Positions 44,730-53,463 are shown, counted from the first letter of the stretch. The stretch: DNA of 64,000 bases from Micromonospora sp. LH3U1 (GCF_028475105.1 NZ_CP116936.1:4153501-4217500); one strand, 5' to 3'. Notes: a model not told the origin generated them from the sequence alone. Made by a program: numbers and translations.

Positions 44730-47700
44730 TCAGACCTCCTGGTCGTGGCCGCTGTCGGGGTCGTCGGTCGTGACCTGCGGCGGATAGTGCGGGCTGAGGT
44801 CCCCGGACCGCCGCCGGTAGTCGACGAGGAGTTCCAGTAGTGCCAGTCCTCTCGGGCGCCGACCGGGCCGCACGTCGCAGGTGCCGACCTTGCTCTCCTG
44901 GATCAGGACGTTCGGGTCGAGGCTGATACCGAACAGGTCGTTGGCCGAGTCACCGGTCACCAGGCCCTCCGGGCCGAAGTGGTACGGCAGCCAGAGCTGG
45001 TGGATGATGCGGTTGTCGACCCGCAGCGGGGTCAGCCGGTCGGTCACCAGCACACGCGCCTCGATGGCCGCGCGGGTGGTGATCAGGTGCGTCCAGCCCA
45101 GGTGGTTGAGGCCACGTTCCGCCGCCAGCTCCGGCGACACCTCGACGAACATCTCTGGTTGCAGCTCGGCCAGGGGCGACACGTTGCGGCTCATCGCGCC
45201 GGCGGTGTGGTGCTCGGTGAGCCGGCTGACCGTGAAGATGTACGGGAACACCTGGCTGTGCGGCTCCGGTGGGCTCGGGTTGAGCGTGTTGATCGGGTGT
45301 GTGTAGACCTTGCGGGTCGGATTGGACTGCTGCCGGTAGAGCGGGTTGCGCACCGGTGACTCGACGGGCTCGTAGTGGGTGGGCATCGGCCCGTCGAGCA
45401 CGCCGGTGGGCGCGTACAACCAGCCCTTGCCGTCGCCCTGAAGGATGAACGGGTCGTCGCCGGCAATGCCCGCCACGCCCGAGGCGTCCGGGCCCGGTCG
45501 GTAGGACGGCGGCTTGTTCTTCTCGAAGTCCGGCACGTCGTAGCCGGTCCACTCGCCCTTGTCCGGGTCCCACCAGACGTACTTCTTCCGCTCGCTCCAC
45601 GGGTTGCCGTCGGGGTCGGCGGAGGCACGGTTGTAGAGGATGCGCCGGTTTGCCGGCCAGGCCCAGCCCCACTCCAGGGCGACCATGGACTGCTCGCTGG
45701 CGGGTTTGCGGCGAGCGGCCTGGTTGACGCCGTCCGCGTACACCCCGCTGTAGATCCAGCATCCGCAGACGGTGGAGCCGTCGTCCTTCAGCTCGGTGAA
45801 GGACGACAGTGGCCGACCGGTCGCCACCTCGTACCCGTTGATCTCGCGCAGCACCGACTCGGCGCTCGGCTCCGCGTGCGGACCGTGCGTGGGGTAGTCC
45901 CAGGCCAGGTCGAGCAACGCGCGGTCGCGGGACACGGTCGACGTCGCCAACCGTTCCCGGATGACGCGCCCGAGGTGGTAGAAGAACCACAGTTCGGAGC
46001 GGGCGTCGCCTGGCGGCTCGACGGCCTTCTCCCGCCACTGCAACAGACGTTGGGTCTGGGTGAAGGTCCCCTCCTTCTCCACGTGCGAGGCGGCGGGCAG
46101 GAAGAACACCTCCGTTCGGCACTCCTCCGGCACGATCTCACCGGTCTCGATCTCGGGCGCGGTCTGCCAGAACGTCGCGCTCTCAATCATGAACAGGTCC
46201 CGGACCACCAACCAGTCCAGGTTGGCCATCCCGAGCCGCTGCGCACGACCGTGCGCCGAGCCGACGGCCGGGTTCTGGCCGAGCAGGAAGTAGCCCTTGA
46301 TCTTGCCGTCGATCATGTCGAGCACCTGCTGGTAGGTGCCGTGATCACCGGTCATCCGCGGCATGTAGCCGTAGCAGTAGTCGTTGTCGGCGGTGGCGGC
46401 ATCACCCCAGTACGCCTTGAGCAGGTTGACGCCGTAGGCGCGGGCGTTACCCCAGAAGCCCTTCTGGCCCGGGTGCCGGATGCTGTCCACCCACTCGTCG
46501 AAGGTCGGGTGGTCGGCGTGGTGCGGCATCGGCAGGTAGCCGGGCAGCAGGTTGAACAACGTCGGGATGTCGGTGGAGCCCTGGATGCTGGCGTGCCCGC
46601 GCAGTGCCATGACCCCGCCACCCGGGCGACCCATGTTGCCGAGCAACAGCTGGATGATCGCGCCGGTGCGGATGTACTGCACACCCACACTGTGCTGCGT
46701 CCACCCGACCGAGTAGACGAGCATGCTGGTCCGTTCCCGGCCGGAGTTCCGCGTCCACGCCTGGGCCAGCTCCAGGAACTTGTCCTGCGCGATGCCACAG
46801 ACCCGCTCGACCATCTCCGGTGTGTAGCGGGCGTAGTGCCGCTTGAGGATCTGGTAGACGCAGCGCGGGTGCTGCAACGTCTCGTCGCGTTCGGTGTCGC
46901 CGTCGACCGGCGCGCCGTGCGACTCGTGCTCCAGCCCGGCCGCGGTCTCCCGCTGGGTCTCGGTGTCGCGGGTCGTCACGTTCTGCCCGTTGCCCGCGTA
47001 CCGCCAACTGGCCTGGTCATAGCTGGCGTTCTCGATCTTGAAGCCGGAGAAGAGCCCGTGCAGGTCCTCGGTGTCGGCGTACTCCTCGGTCACGATGGTC
47101 GCCGCGTTGGTGTACGAGACCACGTACTCCCGGAAGTCGAGCTCGTTGTCCAGGATGTAGCGGATCACGCCACCGAGCAGGGCGATGTCGGTGCCTGCCC
47201 GGATCGGCAGGTACGCGTCCGCCACCGCGCTGGTGCGGGTGAACCTCGGGTCGACGTGGAAGACCTTCGCGCCGCGGCGCTTGGCCTCCATCACCCACTG
47301 GAAGCCCACCGGGTGCGCCTCGGCCATGTTCGAACCCTGAATGACGATCATGTCGGAGTTCGACAGGTCCTGCTGGTACTGGGTGGCGCCCCCACGGCCG
47401 AAGCTGGTCCCCAGACCGGGGACGGTGGAGGAGTGTCAAATACGGGCCTGGTTCTCGATCTGGAGCGCCCCCATCGCGGTGAACAACTTCTTGATGAGGT
47501 AGTTCTCCTCGTTGTCCAGCGTCGCCCCACCCAGGCTGGAGATGCCCAGCGTCCGGTTGAGCGGCCGACCCTCGTCGTCGACGTCCTCCCAGGTTTCGTC
47601 CCGGGCGGCCAGGACCCGGTCGGCGATCATGTTGAGCGCCGTGTCGAGGTCGAGGTCCTCCCACTCGGTGCCGTACGGCCGGCGGTAACGGATCTTCGTC

Positions 47701-48005
47701 TGCCGCAGCGGGCTGGTCACCAGACTCTTACTGGCCGAGCCCTTCGGACAGAGCCGACCCCGCGAGATCGGGCTGTCCGGGTCGCCCTCGATCTGACTGA
47801 CCTGCCCGTCCTTGACGAACACCCGCTGGCCACAACCCACCGCGCAGTACGGGCAGACGGACCGGGCCACTGAGTCGGCGGTTTCCGTGCGGGCGGTGAG
47901 CGCCCGGGATCCGTCGGACTTCGCCGCGGCGCCCCGGCCGAGCGGGTCGGTGCCGGTGAGCTGGCGGTAGACCGGCCAGCCCTCGATCCAGCTCCGCACC
48001 CCCAT
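44730..48005 (-). CDS. fdhA: Formate dehydrogenase catalytic subunit, selenocysteine-containing
   Basis: A 1091-residue molybdopterin oxidoreductase that oxidises formate to CO2. The N-terminal 4Fe-4S group is CPYCAVGCGQ with GRLCPKGSAS. Codon 190 (47436-47438) is an in-frame TGA in the context ENQARI-Sec-HSSTVPGLGTSFGRGG, exactly where formate dehydrogenases carry selenocysteine or cysteine. The frame continues without other stops to 44730, and a SECIS hairpin follows the TGA, so I read it as a selenoprotein; conventional callers will split it at this codon. ATG 48005 has GGGAAGG seven bases upstream; a GTG at 48044 is also in frame. Membrane export motif is not evident. Operon with the iron-sulfur and NrfD-like genes. 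Confidence 0.93.
47407..47423 (-). other. Bacterial SECIS element in fdhA mRNA
   Basis: Reading the minus strand, 12 bases after the UGA a stem GTCCCC / GGGGAC encloses the loop GGTCT. The loop sequence equals the SelB-binding GGUCU loop of E. coli fdhF, and the loop begins 18 bases after the UGA in both. This directs selenocysteine insertion by SelB. Confidence 0.88.
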
Positions 48006-48024
48006 CGGCGCACCTTCCCGACCA

Positions 48025-48062
48025 ATCTCATCAAATATGAACACTCTGACGTTAGATGAGAT
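48025..48062. promoter_or_regulatory. Inverted repeat upstream of fdhA
   Basis: Perfect 8-bp arms ATCTCATC and GATGAGAT separated by 22 bases lie 20 bp upstream of the fdhA start in an AT-rich patch. Could be an operator with two half-sites spaced two helical turns or more apart. Confidence 0.4.
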
Positions 48063-48150: not shown

Positions 48151-48948
48151 TCAGTTCGGCTGGAGCTGGCCGATGCGATGGTCGCTGAAAGTCCGGTAGC
48201 GGTGCAGCTCCCAGAACAGCCAGCCGATGCTGACGATCGCCAACACGATGAAGACCAGTGAGCCGGAGAACGTGTCCCAGAGGGTGTGCAGGACGACGAC
48301 ACCCAGGAACGTGCCGATGAACCCGAACAGCCGGCGGACGCTCGGGCTGGCCAACAGCGCCCACAGCGCGCCGGCGGTGAGCCCGGTCCAGGCGGTGTGG
48401 CCGGCGGGCGCGGTCAGACCGCGGATGAACAGGGTCTGCTCCACCGCGCCGATGTTGCCCTGCGAGCTCAGCAGAGCCGTGAAGGCGTAACCCATCGTCT
48501 CCAGCGCGGCGAACCCCATGCCGGCGGCGACGCCGATGATCAGCCCGTCGGAGGGCACCCGACGACGATGCTGAGCCACGACCGTGAACAGCAGCACCAC
48601 CGGGACGATCAGCTTCGCCGACTCCTCGATCAGTGCCACGAACAGCATGGGCAGCGTGCCGAGCCCACGCAGGGTGTCGTACTCCAGCGTGCCGGCGACC
48701 ACCGTGCCGATCACACCACCGAAGAACGCGGACGTCACCAGCACCGACGCCGGCACCTGCCACCGCCCGGTACGTGCCTGCGCGAACGTCAGGAACGTCA
48801 GCGGAACCAGCGTCGCCCCGAGCAGGATCAGTGCCGGCACGAAGTTCGGATTTTGCGTGCTGACCAGGGTCCGCAGCACCGCTACATAGAGGATCAGCCC
48901 GATGACGAGCACTCCGACCCACGCCGACCGGCGCGAACGATCACCCAT
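48151..48948 (-). CDS. PrsW-like intramembrane metalloprotease
   Basis: A 265-residue membrane protein of about eight helices. The PrsW/CAAX-like conserved groups are present: EESAKL (first Glu pair), FAALETMGYAF, AGHTAWTG and LHTLWD. In Bacillus, PrsW starts cleavage of an anti-sigma factor; in actinobacteria the targets are mostly unknown. The gene is monocistronic, between the fdh operon and a long non-coding gap. Function as a regulated protease is inferred from the family. Confidence 0.82.
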   Translation of the reverse strand: MGDRSRRSAWVGVLVIGLILYVAVLRTLVSTQNPNFVPALILLGATLVPLTFLTFAQARTGRWQVPASVLVTSAFFGGVIGTVVAGTLEYDTLRGLGTLPMLFVALIEESAKLIVPVVLLFTVVAQHRRRVPSDGLIIGVAAGMGFAALETMGYAFTALLSSQGNIGAVEQTLFIRGLTAPAGHTAWTGLTAGALWALLASPSVRRLFGFIGTFLGVVVLHTLWDTFSGSLVFIVLAIVSIGWLFWELHRYRTFSDHRIGQLQPN

Positions 48949-49476: not shown

Positions 49477-51465
49477 ATGAGCAACAACCGACGGCTGCGG
49501 CGGGGGCTGAAGCGTGGCCGCGCCGCTTCCGGGCTGAGTTCTGCCCTGATGGTGGTCGGGATGACGGGTGGGCCCGCAGCCGCAGCGCAACCCGTGGAAG
49601 CGAAATCGCCTGCCCAGGCCGTGCACATGGGTACGCCCGGTCCGCTCGGCCAGTACGGCGGGTGGCCGTCCTCTTGGTCGACTGTCCGCCAAGACGGCGG
49701 CGGACCTGACGATTCGCCGGGCCACTACCCTGGCGGACCACCGGACCACGGCCCGCAGGGCTGGCAGGGCCCGTGGCACGACGGGGGCAAGCGGCCGAAG
49801 CCGGCCTACCCGCATGGCTCCAAGGGCAGTAAGGGCAAAGGCCCTCAGGGCGTTCAAGGCGCACAGGGCGACACCGGCGCTCAAGGCGTTCAAGGTGCTG
49901 AAGGTGCCCAAGGCGACACGGGCTCCCAGGGCAACACCGGCGCCCAAGGCAACCAAGGCTTCCAGGGTGCTCTAGGCGCCCAAGGCAACACCGGGGCACA
50001 AGGCAACCAAGGCGACACCGGCTCCCAAGGTTTCCAAGGTGCTCAAGGCGCCCAAGGCAACACGGGCGCTCAAGGCGCTCAAGGCTTCCAGGGTGCTCAA
50101 GGCAACACCGGCGCACAAGGCTCCCAAGGCAACACGGGCGCTCAAGGCTCCCAAGGCTTCCAAGGTGCTCAAGGCAACACGGGCGCTCAAGGCTCCCAAG
50201 GCTTCCAAGGTGCTCAAGGCAACACCGGCGCACAAGGCTCCCAAGGCAGCACGGGCGCTCAAGGCTCCCAAGGCTCCCAAGGCTCCCAAGGCTCCCAAGG
50301 CAACACCGGCTCCCAAGGTTTCCAGGGTGCTCAGGGCGCTCAGGGCGACACCGGCTCCCAAGGTTTCCAGGGTGCCCAAGGTGCCCAAGGCAACACCGGT
50401 GCACCAGGCAACACCGGCGCACAAGGTGCCCAGGGCAACACGGGCGCTCAAGGCGCTCAAGGCGCTCAAGGCGCCCAAGGCGCCCAAGGCGCCCAGGGCA
50501 ACACCGGCGCCCAAGGCTCCCAGGGCGCTCAGGGCGCCCAAGGCGACACCGGCGCACAAGGCACCCAAGGTTTCCAAGGTGCTCAAGGCGCCCAAGGCGA
50601 CACCGGCGCACAAGGCACCCAAGGTTTCCAAGGTGCTCAAGGCGCCCAAGGCGACACCGGCGCACAAGGCACCCAAGGTTTCCAAGGTGCTCAAGGCGCC
50701 CAAGGCGACACCGGCGCACAAGGCACCCAAGGTTTCCAAGGTGCTCAAGGCGCCCAAGGCGACACCGGCGCACAAGGCACCCAAGGTTTCCAAGGTGCTC
50801 AAGGCGCCCAAGGCGACACCGGCGCACAAGGCACCCAAGGTTTCCAAGGTGCTCAAGGCGCCCAAGGCGACACCGGCGCACAAGGCACCCAAGGCAACAC
50901 CGGCGCACAAGGCAACCAAGGCGACACCGGCTCCCAAGGTTTCCAGGGTGCCCAAGGTGCCCAAGGTGCTCAAGGCAACACCGGCGCACAAGGTGCCCAA
51001 GGCAGCACGGGCGCTCAAGGCGTTCAAGGCTTCCAAGGTGCTCAAGGCGCCCAAGGCGACACCGGCGCACAAGGCACCCAAGGTTTCCAAGGTGCTCAAG
51101 GCGCCCAAGGCGACACCGGCACACAAGGCACCCAAGGTTTCCAGGGCGACACGGGCGCCCAGGGGGCTCAAGGCGCGCAGGGGTTGCAGGGCGTACAAGG
51201 ATCCCAGGGCGCGCAGGGTCTGGCGGGCAACGGGATCGACTCAGCATACATCCAGGGCCCGCTGACCGTGATTGCGGACACCCCCGTCAATTTCGGGTGC
51301 GTGCCCGGAGACATTGCTGTCGGAACCGGATATCAGCTCTCGGGTGCGGGCGTCAACCCGGTGCTGATCCAGCCGCTCTCGATCAGTGGCTACCAGTTCA
51401 CCTTTACCGGCGGAGGCGCCGACATCTGGGTGTCCTGTATCTCACCCACCAATCCCGTGGCGTAG
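49477..51465 (+). CDS. Secreted collagen-like GXY-repeat surface protein
   Basis: A 662-residue exported protein. The N-terminus has a basic region and a hydrophobic stretch ending GGPAAAAQP (signal peptide). A Pro/Gly-rich spacer precedes an uninterrupted run of about 155 GXY triplets (about residues 120-585), mostly GAQ, GFQ, GTQ, GNT and GDT, i.e. a Gln/Thr-rich collagen-like triple helix with almost no proline. A 75-residue C-terminal domain ([20 protein letters not shown] onwards) with two Cys probably trimerises it. GGAGGGG before ATG 49477 sets the start. Exposed Thr in GNT/GDT resemble glycosylated sites in Bacillus BclA. It is followed by a lipoprotein and a glycosyltransferase fusion gene. 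Confidence 0.9.
50560..50883 (+). repeat. Six identical 54-bp tandem repeats in the collagen-like gene
   Basis: Six head-to-tail 54-bp units, each coding 18 residues ([18 protein letters not shown]), appear identical including synonymous positions. Near-copies lie at about 51069-51130. Lack of silent differences implies recent expansion or gene conversion, so length variation between strains is expected. Confidence 0.9.
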
Positions 51466-51562
51466 GCACCTGCCGCCAACAGTCGGCCCGAACGGCGCCA
51501 GCAGCAGCAATGCCAGCCGGCGGAAGAGCAAGTCGCCGCCTCGTTACTGTCAAGGAGAAGAA

Positions 51563-52189
51563 ATGAGCACGCGTCAGATATTCGGGTCACTCGCCTGTGG
51601 TGCGGTCCTGCTGGCCGGAGTCCCGGCATGCAGCGAGAAGCCTGCTGACAAGCCGCAGACGAGCAACGCCGGCAACAGCGACAAGGCGAACGGCGACACC
51701 AGCACCGGAACCGCGCCGGCGGATCTGCTGAAGCTCGGTGTCGAGCAGGGCCAAGCCGGCAACTTCGACGCGGCGAAAGCCACCTTCGAGAAAGTGCTGG
51801 CCGCCGAGGACAACAACAAGTTCGCCTGGTTCAACCTGGGCTTCATAGCCCAGTCGCGCAACCAGGCCGACGAGGCGATCAGCAACTACGACAAGGCATT
51901 GGCGGCCGACGCCAACTACAAGCCGGCCCTTTACAACAAGGCCATTGCACTGGAAAGTAAGGCCCCAACGACGTCGATGGACATCTACCGCAAGGTCGTG
52001 TCGATCGACAACAAGTCGTCAACGGCCTACCTCCGGCTGGGCATGCTGCTGTCCCAATCCGGTGACGACGCGGCGGCGCGGGACGCCTTCAAGGCGGCGA
52101 TGCGGCTGGACAAGGGGCTCACCTCAGCCGTGCCGGCGAAGTACCGTGCGGTCCCGAAGGCTCCGTCCTCGGCTCCGGCGGGTAGGTGA
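51563..52189 (+). CDS. TPR-repeat lipoprotein
   Basis: A 208-residue lipoprotein. The signal ends in LLAGVPACSEK, with the lipid-modified Cys at about 23, followed by a Ser/Asn/Asp-rich spacer and about four tetratricopeptide repeats (for example GNFDAAKATFEKVLA and KFAWFNLGFIAQS). TPR lipoproteins act as scaffolds outside the membrane. AAGGAG precedes ATG 51563. It lies 97 bp after the collagen-like gene and overlaps the glycosyltransferase gene by GTGA, so it likely helps assemble or anchor that filament. That role is inferred from position only. Confidence 0.8.
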   Translation: MSTRQIFGSLACGAVLLAGVPACSEKPADKPQTSNAGNSDKANGDTSTGTAPADLLKLGVEQGQAGNFDAAKATFEKVLAAEDNNKFAWFNLGFIAQSRNQADEAISNYDKALAADANYKPALYNKAIALESKAPTTSMDIYRKVVSIDNKSSTAYLRLGMLLSQSGDDAAARDAFKAAMRLDKGLTSAVPAKYRAVPKAPSSAPAGR

Positions 52190-53463
52190 TTGGCTCAATG
52201 CGTACACCGCGCGTAACGGTCTTCACAGGGAGCAACCGCACCCGTTTCATCGATGAATGTTTCCGATCACTGGTCGAGCAGACTTTTACCGACTGGGAGT
52301 GGGTGGTCGTTCTCAACCAGGGGTCTCGTTGGCGGCCCGAGAGGCACGACGATCGGATCCGGCTCATTGTCCAGGACAACCTGAACGGCGTTGGCGCCGT
52401 GAAAGGGTACGCCTGCGCCGAGGCTGCCGGGGACATCCTGGTCGAGCTTGACGACGACGATCTGCTCAGCAGCGACTGTCTGCAAGAAATCGTCGACGCC
52501 TTCGACTCCAACCCGGAGGTGGGGTTCGTCTACAGCGACACCGCGCAGATCCAGGAGGACGGTGGCCGCTGCGAGGACCGTTTCGCGAGTTCATTTGGTT
52601 GGCGGCACTACGACGAGAAGGTGGACGGCCGCGAGGTGCTGGCCTGCCGGGCGTTGCCGCCGACGCCGCACAATGTGAGCTACATCTGGTACGCACCGAA
52701 CCATGTGCGGGCGTTCCGCCGGGACATCTACGAGAAGGTCGGCGGATACGACGAGTCGCTCGACGTCGCGGACGACGCCGATCTCATGGCTCGGATCTAC
52801 CAGGTGAGCGAGTTCCATCACATTCAGAAATGCCTGTACCTGCAGCGCATACATGCCAAGAACACGCAGCGCATTCCGGATGTCAACGCCCGTATCCAGC
52901 AGCGCACGGTGGAGATCTACGACCGGAACATTCAACAGAATGTGCTGACCTGGTCACGGCGGCAGGGACTCCTGGCGCTCGACCTGGGTGCGGCCCACAA
53001 CAAGCCGGAAGGATATCTCGGTCTGGACTACCACGACGGGTCGGGCGTCGACATGGTCTGCGACGTGACGAAGGGGGTCGATCTACCGGACAACAGCGTC
53101 GGGGTCATTCGGGCTGTGGACTTCCTGGAACACATTCCGGACAAAATCGCACTGTTCAACGAGTTGTACCGACTGCTCGCGCCGAACGGGATGCTGCTGT
53201 CGCTGACACCCAGCACCGACGGTCGGGGTGCCTACCAAGATCCGACGCATGTGGCGTTCTACAACGAAAACTCGTTCTGGTATTTCACAGACGCCAACTA
53301 CTCTCGGTTCGTACCTGAAATCAATTGCCGATTCCAGGCGTCGCGGTTGGTCACCTACTTCCCGAGCGAATGGCACCAGACGCACAACATCCCCTATGTC
53401 TCAGCGAATCTCATCGCGATCAAGGACGACGCCCTACGTAACGGCGGTCTGCTGAATATATGA
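52186..53463 (+). CDS. GT2 glycosyltransferase fused to SAM methyltransferase
   Basis: A 425-residue bifunctional protein. Residues about 8-235 are a GT-A glycosyltransferase family 2 domain with VTVFTGSNRTRFIDECFRSL and the metal-binding ELDDDDLLSSD. Residues about 255-420 are a class I methyltransferase with LLALDLGAAHNKPEGYLGLD (SAM loop), PDNSVGVIRAVDFLEHIPD and a Tyr/Phe-rich C-terminal part (HVAFYNENSFWYFTD). The GTG at 52186 overlaps the TPR gene stop; ATG 52198 is an alternative. One protein could thus add and methylate a sugar. The neighbouring collagen-like protein with many Thr is the plausible acceptor. Confidence 0.85.
   Translation: MIGSMRTPRVTVFTGSNRTRFIDECFRSLVEQTFTDWEWVVVLNQGSRWRPERHDDRIRLIVQDNLNGVGAVKGYACAEAAGDILVELDDDDLLSSDCLQEIVDAFDSNPEVGFVYSDTAQIQEDGGRCEDRFASSFGWRHYDEKVDGREVLACRALPPTPHNVSYIWYAPNHVRAFRRDIYEKVGGYDESLDVADDADLMARIYQVSEFHHIQKCLYLQRIHAKNTQRIPDVNARIQQRTVEIYDRNIQQNVLTWSRRQGLLALDLGAAHNKPEGYLGLDYHDGSGVDMVCDVTKGVDLPDNSVGVIRAVDFLEHIPDKIALFNELYRLLAPNGMLLSLTPSTDGRGAYQDPTHVAFYNENSFWYFTDANYSRFVPEINCRFQASRLVTYFPSEWHQTHNIPYVSANLIAIKDDALRNGGLLNI

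Follow-up and report, generated by a model that had tools for sequence, protein, structure and literature searches.

We analysed a 64,000-nucleotide stretch (the window) of the genome of Micromonospora sp. LH3U1, a single contig of 7.09 Mb, and found that three co-directional genes at positions 49477-53463 form a conserved unit that recurs in distant Actinomycetota. They encode a collagen-like protein, a tetratricopeptide repeat (TPR) lipoprotein and a fusion of a family 2 glycosyltransferase (GT2) with a methyltransferase (MT) (Table 1). An earlier note on this DNA had suggested that the trio makes a glycosylated filament. We consider it probable that the genes constitute a collagen-modification cassette, in which the fusion would glycosylate and methylate the collagen before export, and the TPR protein would anchor or assemble the filament.

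Conservation was surveyed in 160 genomes of the genus, with the fusion called at E below 1e-60. The fusion was present in 20 genomes, and the order collagen-TPR-GT-MT was kept in all 21 loci, including that of the window. Since the same three genes occur in the same order in 20 of 160 genomes, the trio is more than a chance arrangement. The absence of conservation, which the earlier note had named as a ground for abandoning the idea, was thus not observed: the trio keeps its order within the genus and recurs, in rearranged form, in three classes of Actinomycetota. One genome (G030) carries two copies of the trio, from two diverged clades, and several draft contigs stop within the collagen repeat, as expected of repeats. 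In one locus (L075, genome G176), an early in-frame stop interrupts the GT-MT frame and the collagen frame is broken as well, which indicates either degeneration of this copy or an error in sequencing. The chromosomal site is not fixed: in genome G002 the trio maps to 5.08 Mb, and a close relative of the PrsW gene that neighbours the trio in the window maps to 1.70 Mb.

Matches to the GXQ4 pattern occurred in all 20 fusion carriers of the genus, with four or more in 17 of them, and among the 140 non-carriers two genomes, G064 and G133, reached four. The G064 matches are a GRQ-type reading of another frame. A separate collagen hit in G133 proved to be a GGP-rich non-collagen sequence. The Pfam Collagen search of the genus genomes was set aside: at the E-value chosen it failed to recover the collagen of the window's trio, and not all candidates received a score.

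Outside the genus survey, 84,980 species genomes were scanned, and 80 loci with a full-length fusion were kept for analysis with flanks of up to 8 kb on each side. The fusions were 59-97% identical to the query, and their hosts were Micromonospora, Plantactinospora, Streptomyces, Kitasatospora, Saccharothrix, Frankia, Acidimicrobiales and Solirubrobacterales; the relatives in Streptomyces, Kitasatospora, Frankia, Acidimicrobiales and Solirubrobacterales showed 59-67% identity. A collagen-like open reading frame (ORF) of at least 12 triplets was found within 8 kb in 67 of the 80 loci. Of the remaining 13, nine contained GXQ runs below that length, and contig ends cut three of the other four. 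The reversed-sequence control for collagen runs, positive in 17 of the 80 bacterial loci, was unusable here because a reversed repeat remains a repeat; whole-genome GXQ4 counts were used instead. For seven Streptomyces genomes the match lists were complete, and in these 119 of the 126 GXQ4 matches fell inside the 17-kb fusion locus.

The neighbourhood of the fusion in Streptomyces suggested a sugar donor. All four genes of deoxythymidine diphosphate (dTDP)-rhamnose synthesis, rmlABCD, adjoin the fusion in 15 Streptomyces loci, and in 14 of these rmlB and rmlC flank the collagen run. RmlA, RmlB, RmlC and RmlD of one such locus (L117) score above the NCBIfam equivalog cut-offs. When 15 Streptomyces genomes were searched whole, 13 RmlA genes above the cut-off were found in 11 of them, ten at the fusion locus. 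The donor in the rml-bearing Streptomyces is probably dTDP-L-rhamnose, which is not thereby proved as the universal donor. The rml genes beside the Streptomyces collagens count strongly for the glycosylated filament that had been proposed, in which the glycan on the collagen itself is the part that we infer. A second GT2, similar to SgtA and with TPR-like repeats, was found beside the fusion in eight Streptomyces loci (e.g. L117:5821-6933, minus strand).

The 662-residue protein of the window belongs to the Pfam Collagen family (PF01391, E=1.8e-71, 236 bits against a cut-off of 27), and its N-terminus is a likely signal peptide, judged by its residue pattern. The 155 triplets comprise 68 GAQ, 17 GFQ, 15 GDT, 15 GSQ and 14 GNT. 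Glutamine occupies the Y position in 119 and threonine in 31 of them, which is unusual for a collagen, as is the near-absence of proline. The Cys-containing C-terminal domain, which probably serves in trimerisation or capping, is 86-96% identical to that of the window in the main clade of the genus, and the N-terminal part 66-75%. A related pattern, C..GD.ATGGG....GWQ...VVC, closes most collagens at the other actinomycetote loci. Glutamine at Y is near-universal among the fusion loci and holds at least 50% of the triplets in most of them, and the share of triplets with serine or threonine ranges from 0 to 78%. The common signature of the fusion-linked collagens, as read from their sequences, is GXQ and not GXT. 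Micromonospora sp. LH3U1 encodes a second collagen-like protein (L241:4062-5369, minus strand, near G000:C1:2187184-2187567), whose globular N-terminal region precedes some 43 triplets; these are of the GPT, GSP and GAP types and not of the GXQ type. The surroundings of this gene yielded no relative of the GT-MT fusion.

In the fusion, the N-terminal half belongs to the GT2 family (PF00535, E=1.6e-12, 48 bits against 23.3), and the C-terminal half is a predicted S-adenosylmethionine (SAM)-dependent methyltransferase (Methyltransf_11, 28.3 bits against 21.2; Methyltransf_23, 28.8 against 27). Across 88 aligned rows the metal-binding and catalytic acids of the GT half, including D85, D87 and D88, are invariant, and so are G264, D277 and E311 of the MT half. 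The AlphaFold2 model, built with 88 diverse rows, had a mean local confidence (pLDDT) of 94 and a template-modelling score (pTM) of 0.91. The closest solved fold to the GT half was the Escherichia coli K4 chondroitin polymerase K4CP (Z 24.7 over 226 residues, root-mean-square deviation 2.5), with heparosan synthase 2 and SpsA (Z 21.5) as further neighbours. A sequence-profile search of the fusion also retrieved K4CP, 6p61 and SpsA. The enzyme should be cytosolic, since it has no signal or anchor like that of the TPR protein.

The TPR protein contains about three to four repeats (TPR_8, E=2e-14) and, by motif, is a lipoprotein: its lipobox reads LLAGVPAC, and every one of the 21 homologues in the genus keeps the cysteine of this motif (LL.G..AC). 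The lipoprotein type predominates in Micromonospora and Solirubrobacterales and is found in some Acidimicrobiales, and the Streptomyces homologues carry an N-terminal basic-plus-hydrophobic, transmembrane (TM) anchor in place of the lipobox. Because nearly every intact copy examined is lipid- or TM-anchored, the protein should face outwards, as an extracytoplasmic protein held at the membrane. The anchors fit the membrane-side scaffold that had been assumed for it, a role that is predicted. Weak profile similarities, none of them above the cut-off, were seen to SycD chaperones and to two lipoproteins of pilus assembly, PilW and Tgl.

The fusion also occurs in phages. IMG/VR phage contigs from freshwater and lakes contain copies with 50-62% identity, and GXQ runs were detected in the examined flank of 18 of 80 phage copies versus one in the reversed control. 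In one contig (L200:6753-9254) the fusion lies directly 3' of a collagen-like gene within an apparent tail and baseplate module, and in another (L161:5720-9245) it follows two collagen-like genes. Synechococcus phage S-CRM01 carries a full-length fusion with 39% identity (L239:12004-13257) and has no annotated collagen gene within 12 kb of it. The phage copies suggest that the same chemistry may decorate tail fibres. Recent transfer of the fusion from phages to the genus is not supported, as the bacterial and most of the viral rows stand apart in the tree, with three label changes. No full-length plasmid match to the fusion was found. The nearest match to the GT2 half on Firmicutes plasmids, a glycosyltransferase with 36% identity (51% of the query), is encoded in an exosporium-type cluster of plasmid pB of Peribacillus sp. 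R9-11, flanked by a BclB-related gene on one side and a collagen-like gene on the other.

The well-studied glycosylated collagens of bacteria are spore proteins of Firmicutes, and a glycosylated bacterial collagen with a dedicated glycosyltransferase is already known from that phylum. In Clostridioides difficile, SgtA adds O-GlcNAc to threonines of the BclA3 collagen repeats (PMC7157674). The likeness to the trio lies in a collagen-like surface protein encoded beside its own GT-A glycosyltransferase, with sgtA immediately upstream of bclA3, and in the involvement of TPRs. However, SgtA combines GT2 and TPR in a single polypeptide, with no methyltransferase reported, whereas here the glycosyltransferase is fused to a methyltransferase and the TPR protein, an extracytoplasmic lipoprotein, has its own gene at each of the 21 genus loci. 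The triplets also differ, GXQ-rich here and GPT in BclA3. Bacillus anthracis BclA bears 2-O-methyl anthrose on three rhamnoses (PMC6222408). It resembles the proposed system in its collagen-like filament, its rhamnose oligosaccharide and its methylated terminal sugar, but it is an exosporium protein of Firmicutes spores, and the sources consulted describe neither a fused GT-MT nor a TPR lipoprotein. Geobacillus stearothermophilus WsaE combines rhamnosyltransferase and rhamnose 2-O-methyltransferase domains in one polypeptide, and its S-layer glycan cluster also contains a TPR protein, WsaA (PMC2943079). The two clusters share a joined GT and MT and a TPR protein; yet in WsaE the MT is N-terminal and two GT domains follow, unlike the single GT2 followed by a C-terminal MT found here, and WsaE acts on a lipid-carried S-layer glycan, whereas our fusion is linked to a collagen gene. 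The Peribacillus plasmid cluster is alike in the position of its glycosyltransferase between BclB-related and collagen-like genes, but it is plasmid-borne, belongs to Firmicutes and matches the GT half alone. The trio would work like BclA3/SgtA and WsaE but is a member of neither. Searches of the open-access PMC literature gave no description of the trio or of collagen glycosylation in actinobacteria. The statement of the earlier note that no such system had been described therefore stands for the exact trio in that literature, but not for its parts, as collagen with a GT (BclA3/SgtA) and GT-MT fusions (WsaE) are known. As far as could be tested, the novelty lies in the combination of the three genes, in a TPR lipoprotein that is separate and should face outwards, in the embedding of the collagen among rml genes, and in the distribution over Actinomycetota and phages.

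In the working model of the cassette, the collagen-like chain would be synthesised in the cytosol, where the soluble fusion would transfer a sugar to it, or extend a sugar set by another glycosyltransferase, and then O-methylate that sugar as a cap. The glycosylated chain would be exported by its N-terminal signal peptide and would trimerise with the help of the Cys-containing C-terminal domain. The TPR lipoprotein, on the outer face of the membrane, would bind the emerging chain and help to assemble or hold a surface filament. Several observations weigh against the model. The substrates of the GT and MT are not readable from sequence, and fold similarity fixes neither donor nor acceptor. Linkage of rml genes to the fusion is nearly confined to Streptomyces; among the 15 Streptomyces genomes searched whole, four have the system and no RmlA above the cut-off, and the genome studied here has a single RmlC, 0.7 Mb from the trio. 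A collagen run is lacking from the examined flank in 62 of 80 phage copies. The TPR gene lies directly upstream of the fusion on the same strand in 55 of the 80 bacterial loci but is missing beside it in Frankia and about a dozen Streptomyces, and is therefore a frequent but not universal partner. In addition, at least 11 fusion-bearing loci have serine or threonine in 5% or less of their collagen triplets. The GXT triplets, which had been put forward as the acceptor sites, are thus not borne out as the defining ones: the acceptor may sit outside the triplets or may not be serine or threonine, and if it is threonine, it must lie outside the triplets in the collagens whose triplets are poor in these residues.

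Four alternatives were weighed against the cassette. In the one that keeps closest to it, another glycosyltransferase adds the first sugar, as the SgtA-like protein could in some Streptomyces, and the fusion extends it and caps it with a methylated sugar in the manner of WsaE. The adjoining SgtA-like gene in eight Streptomyces loci and the WsaE capping precedent (PMC2943079) make this a real possibility, which we place somewhat below an even chance, but the Micromonospora loci have no second GT in the conserved unit, the fusion being the sole GT of the trio. For the TPR lipoprotein, a function in export, as a chaperone taking over the nascent chain at the membrane, with the filament released or bound to the wall by other means, falls only a little short of evenly balanced odds. 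The membrane anchor in most copies and the weak similarity to SycD, PilW and Tgl are consistent with it, yet the data fit an anchor and a chaperone alike.

We regard it as unlikely that the fusion builds a methylated cell-surface glycan, polyprenol- or wall-linked, with the collagen co-regulated and not an acceptor. The closeness of the GT2 fold to polysaccharide synthases and SpsA, the weak NCBIfam matches to exopolysaccharide glycosyltransferases and the lack of conservation of the triplet serines and threonines would agree with such a function. However, no flippase, polymerase or lipid-primer GT is prominent among the recurring neighbours, and the linkage is specific to collagen genes, including those of two phages, where no wall glycan is made. 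Chance, or hitch-hiking of a repeat-rich gene beside unrelated genes, could be read into the patchy spread within the genus and the varied chromosomal sites, but it is refuted by the invariant gene order within the genus and by recurrence at 59-67% identity in other families and classes, and we give it hardly any credence.

If the cassette functions as proposed, it would represent a compact, widespread and testable counterpart, in filamentous actinobacteria, to the spore collagens of Firmicutes. In the rml-bearing Streptomyces it physically ties a collagen gene to a complete sugar-donor pathway, and it offers a single enzyme that could both glycosylate and methylate collagen, which would be of use for recombinant collagens too. 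Because the trio recurs across distant actinobacteria, often near rhamnose genes, collagens outside the known spore systems probably bear methylated sugars. A broader and rather doubtful generalisation is that Actinomycetota and some freshwater phages share one GXQ-collagen glyco-methylation system, in which the fused enzyme adds a methylated deoxysugar, the TPR protein assembles the filament, and the sugar perhaps replaces prolyl hydroxylation in stabilising and shielding it.

The arrangement of three genes in a row and in the same direction, as first described, was confirmed by their ORFs and domains, and each has a plausible start and ribosome-binding site. The overlap reported for the last two genes depended on a GTG start at 52186. 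ATG 52198 is the likelier start of the GT-MT gene because a Shine-Dalgarno (SD)-like AGGTGA (52184-52189) lies 8 nt 5' of it and a relative (L077) has a stop codon immediately before the equivalent ATG. With this start the TPR and GT-MT genes are 8 nt apart, and an overlap is unlikely. Between the collagen and TPR genes the gap is 97 nt. The promoter and terminator search at the locus returned nothing above chance.

Table 1. Features of the trio, in coordinates of the window
Feature	Position	Strand	Basis
Collagen-like secreted protein, 662 aa	49477..51465	+	ORF, ATG, SD GGAGG, Pfam PF01391
Likely signal peptide	49477..49590	+	Sequence reading: basic n-region, hydrophobic stretch, AAA site
155 uninterrupted GXY triplets, aa 122-586	49840..51234	+	Sequence reading
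C-terminal globular domain, 76 residues, two Cys	51235..51462	+	Pattern C..GDIAVG.GY...GYQF...VSC
TPR lipoprotein, 208 aa	51563..52189	+	Pfam TPR, lipobox
GT2-methyltransferase fusion, 421 aa plus stop	52198..53463	+	Pfam; alternative start GTG 52186
GT-A fold family 2 glycosyltransferase domain	52198..52956	+	Invariant D85, D87, D88, D192, D193
Class I SAM-dependent methyltransferase domain	52963..53460	+	Motifs LDLGAAHNKPEGYLGLD, DFLEH, TPSTDGRGAYQDPTHVAFYNENSFWYF

The PrsW gene upstream of the trio (48151-48948) was rejected as a fourth member, as it adjoins the trio in genome G115 only. No tRNA genes or Rfam matches were found in the 64-kb window. A formate-dehydrogenase-like gene on the minus strand (44730-48044) contains a single in-frame TGA between NQARI and HSSTV, at the usual selenocysteine/cysteine site, and probably encodes a selenoprotein.

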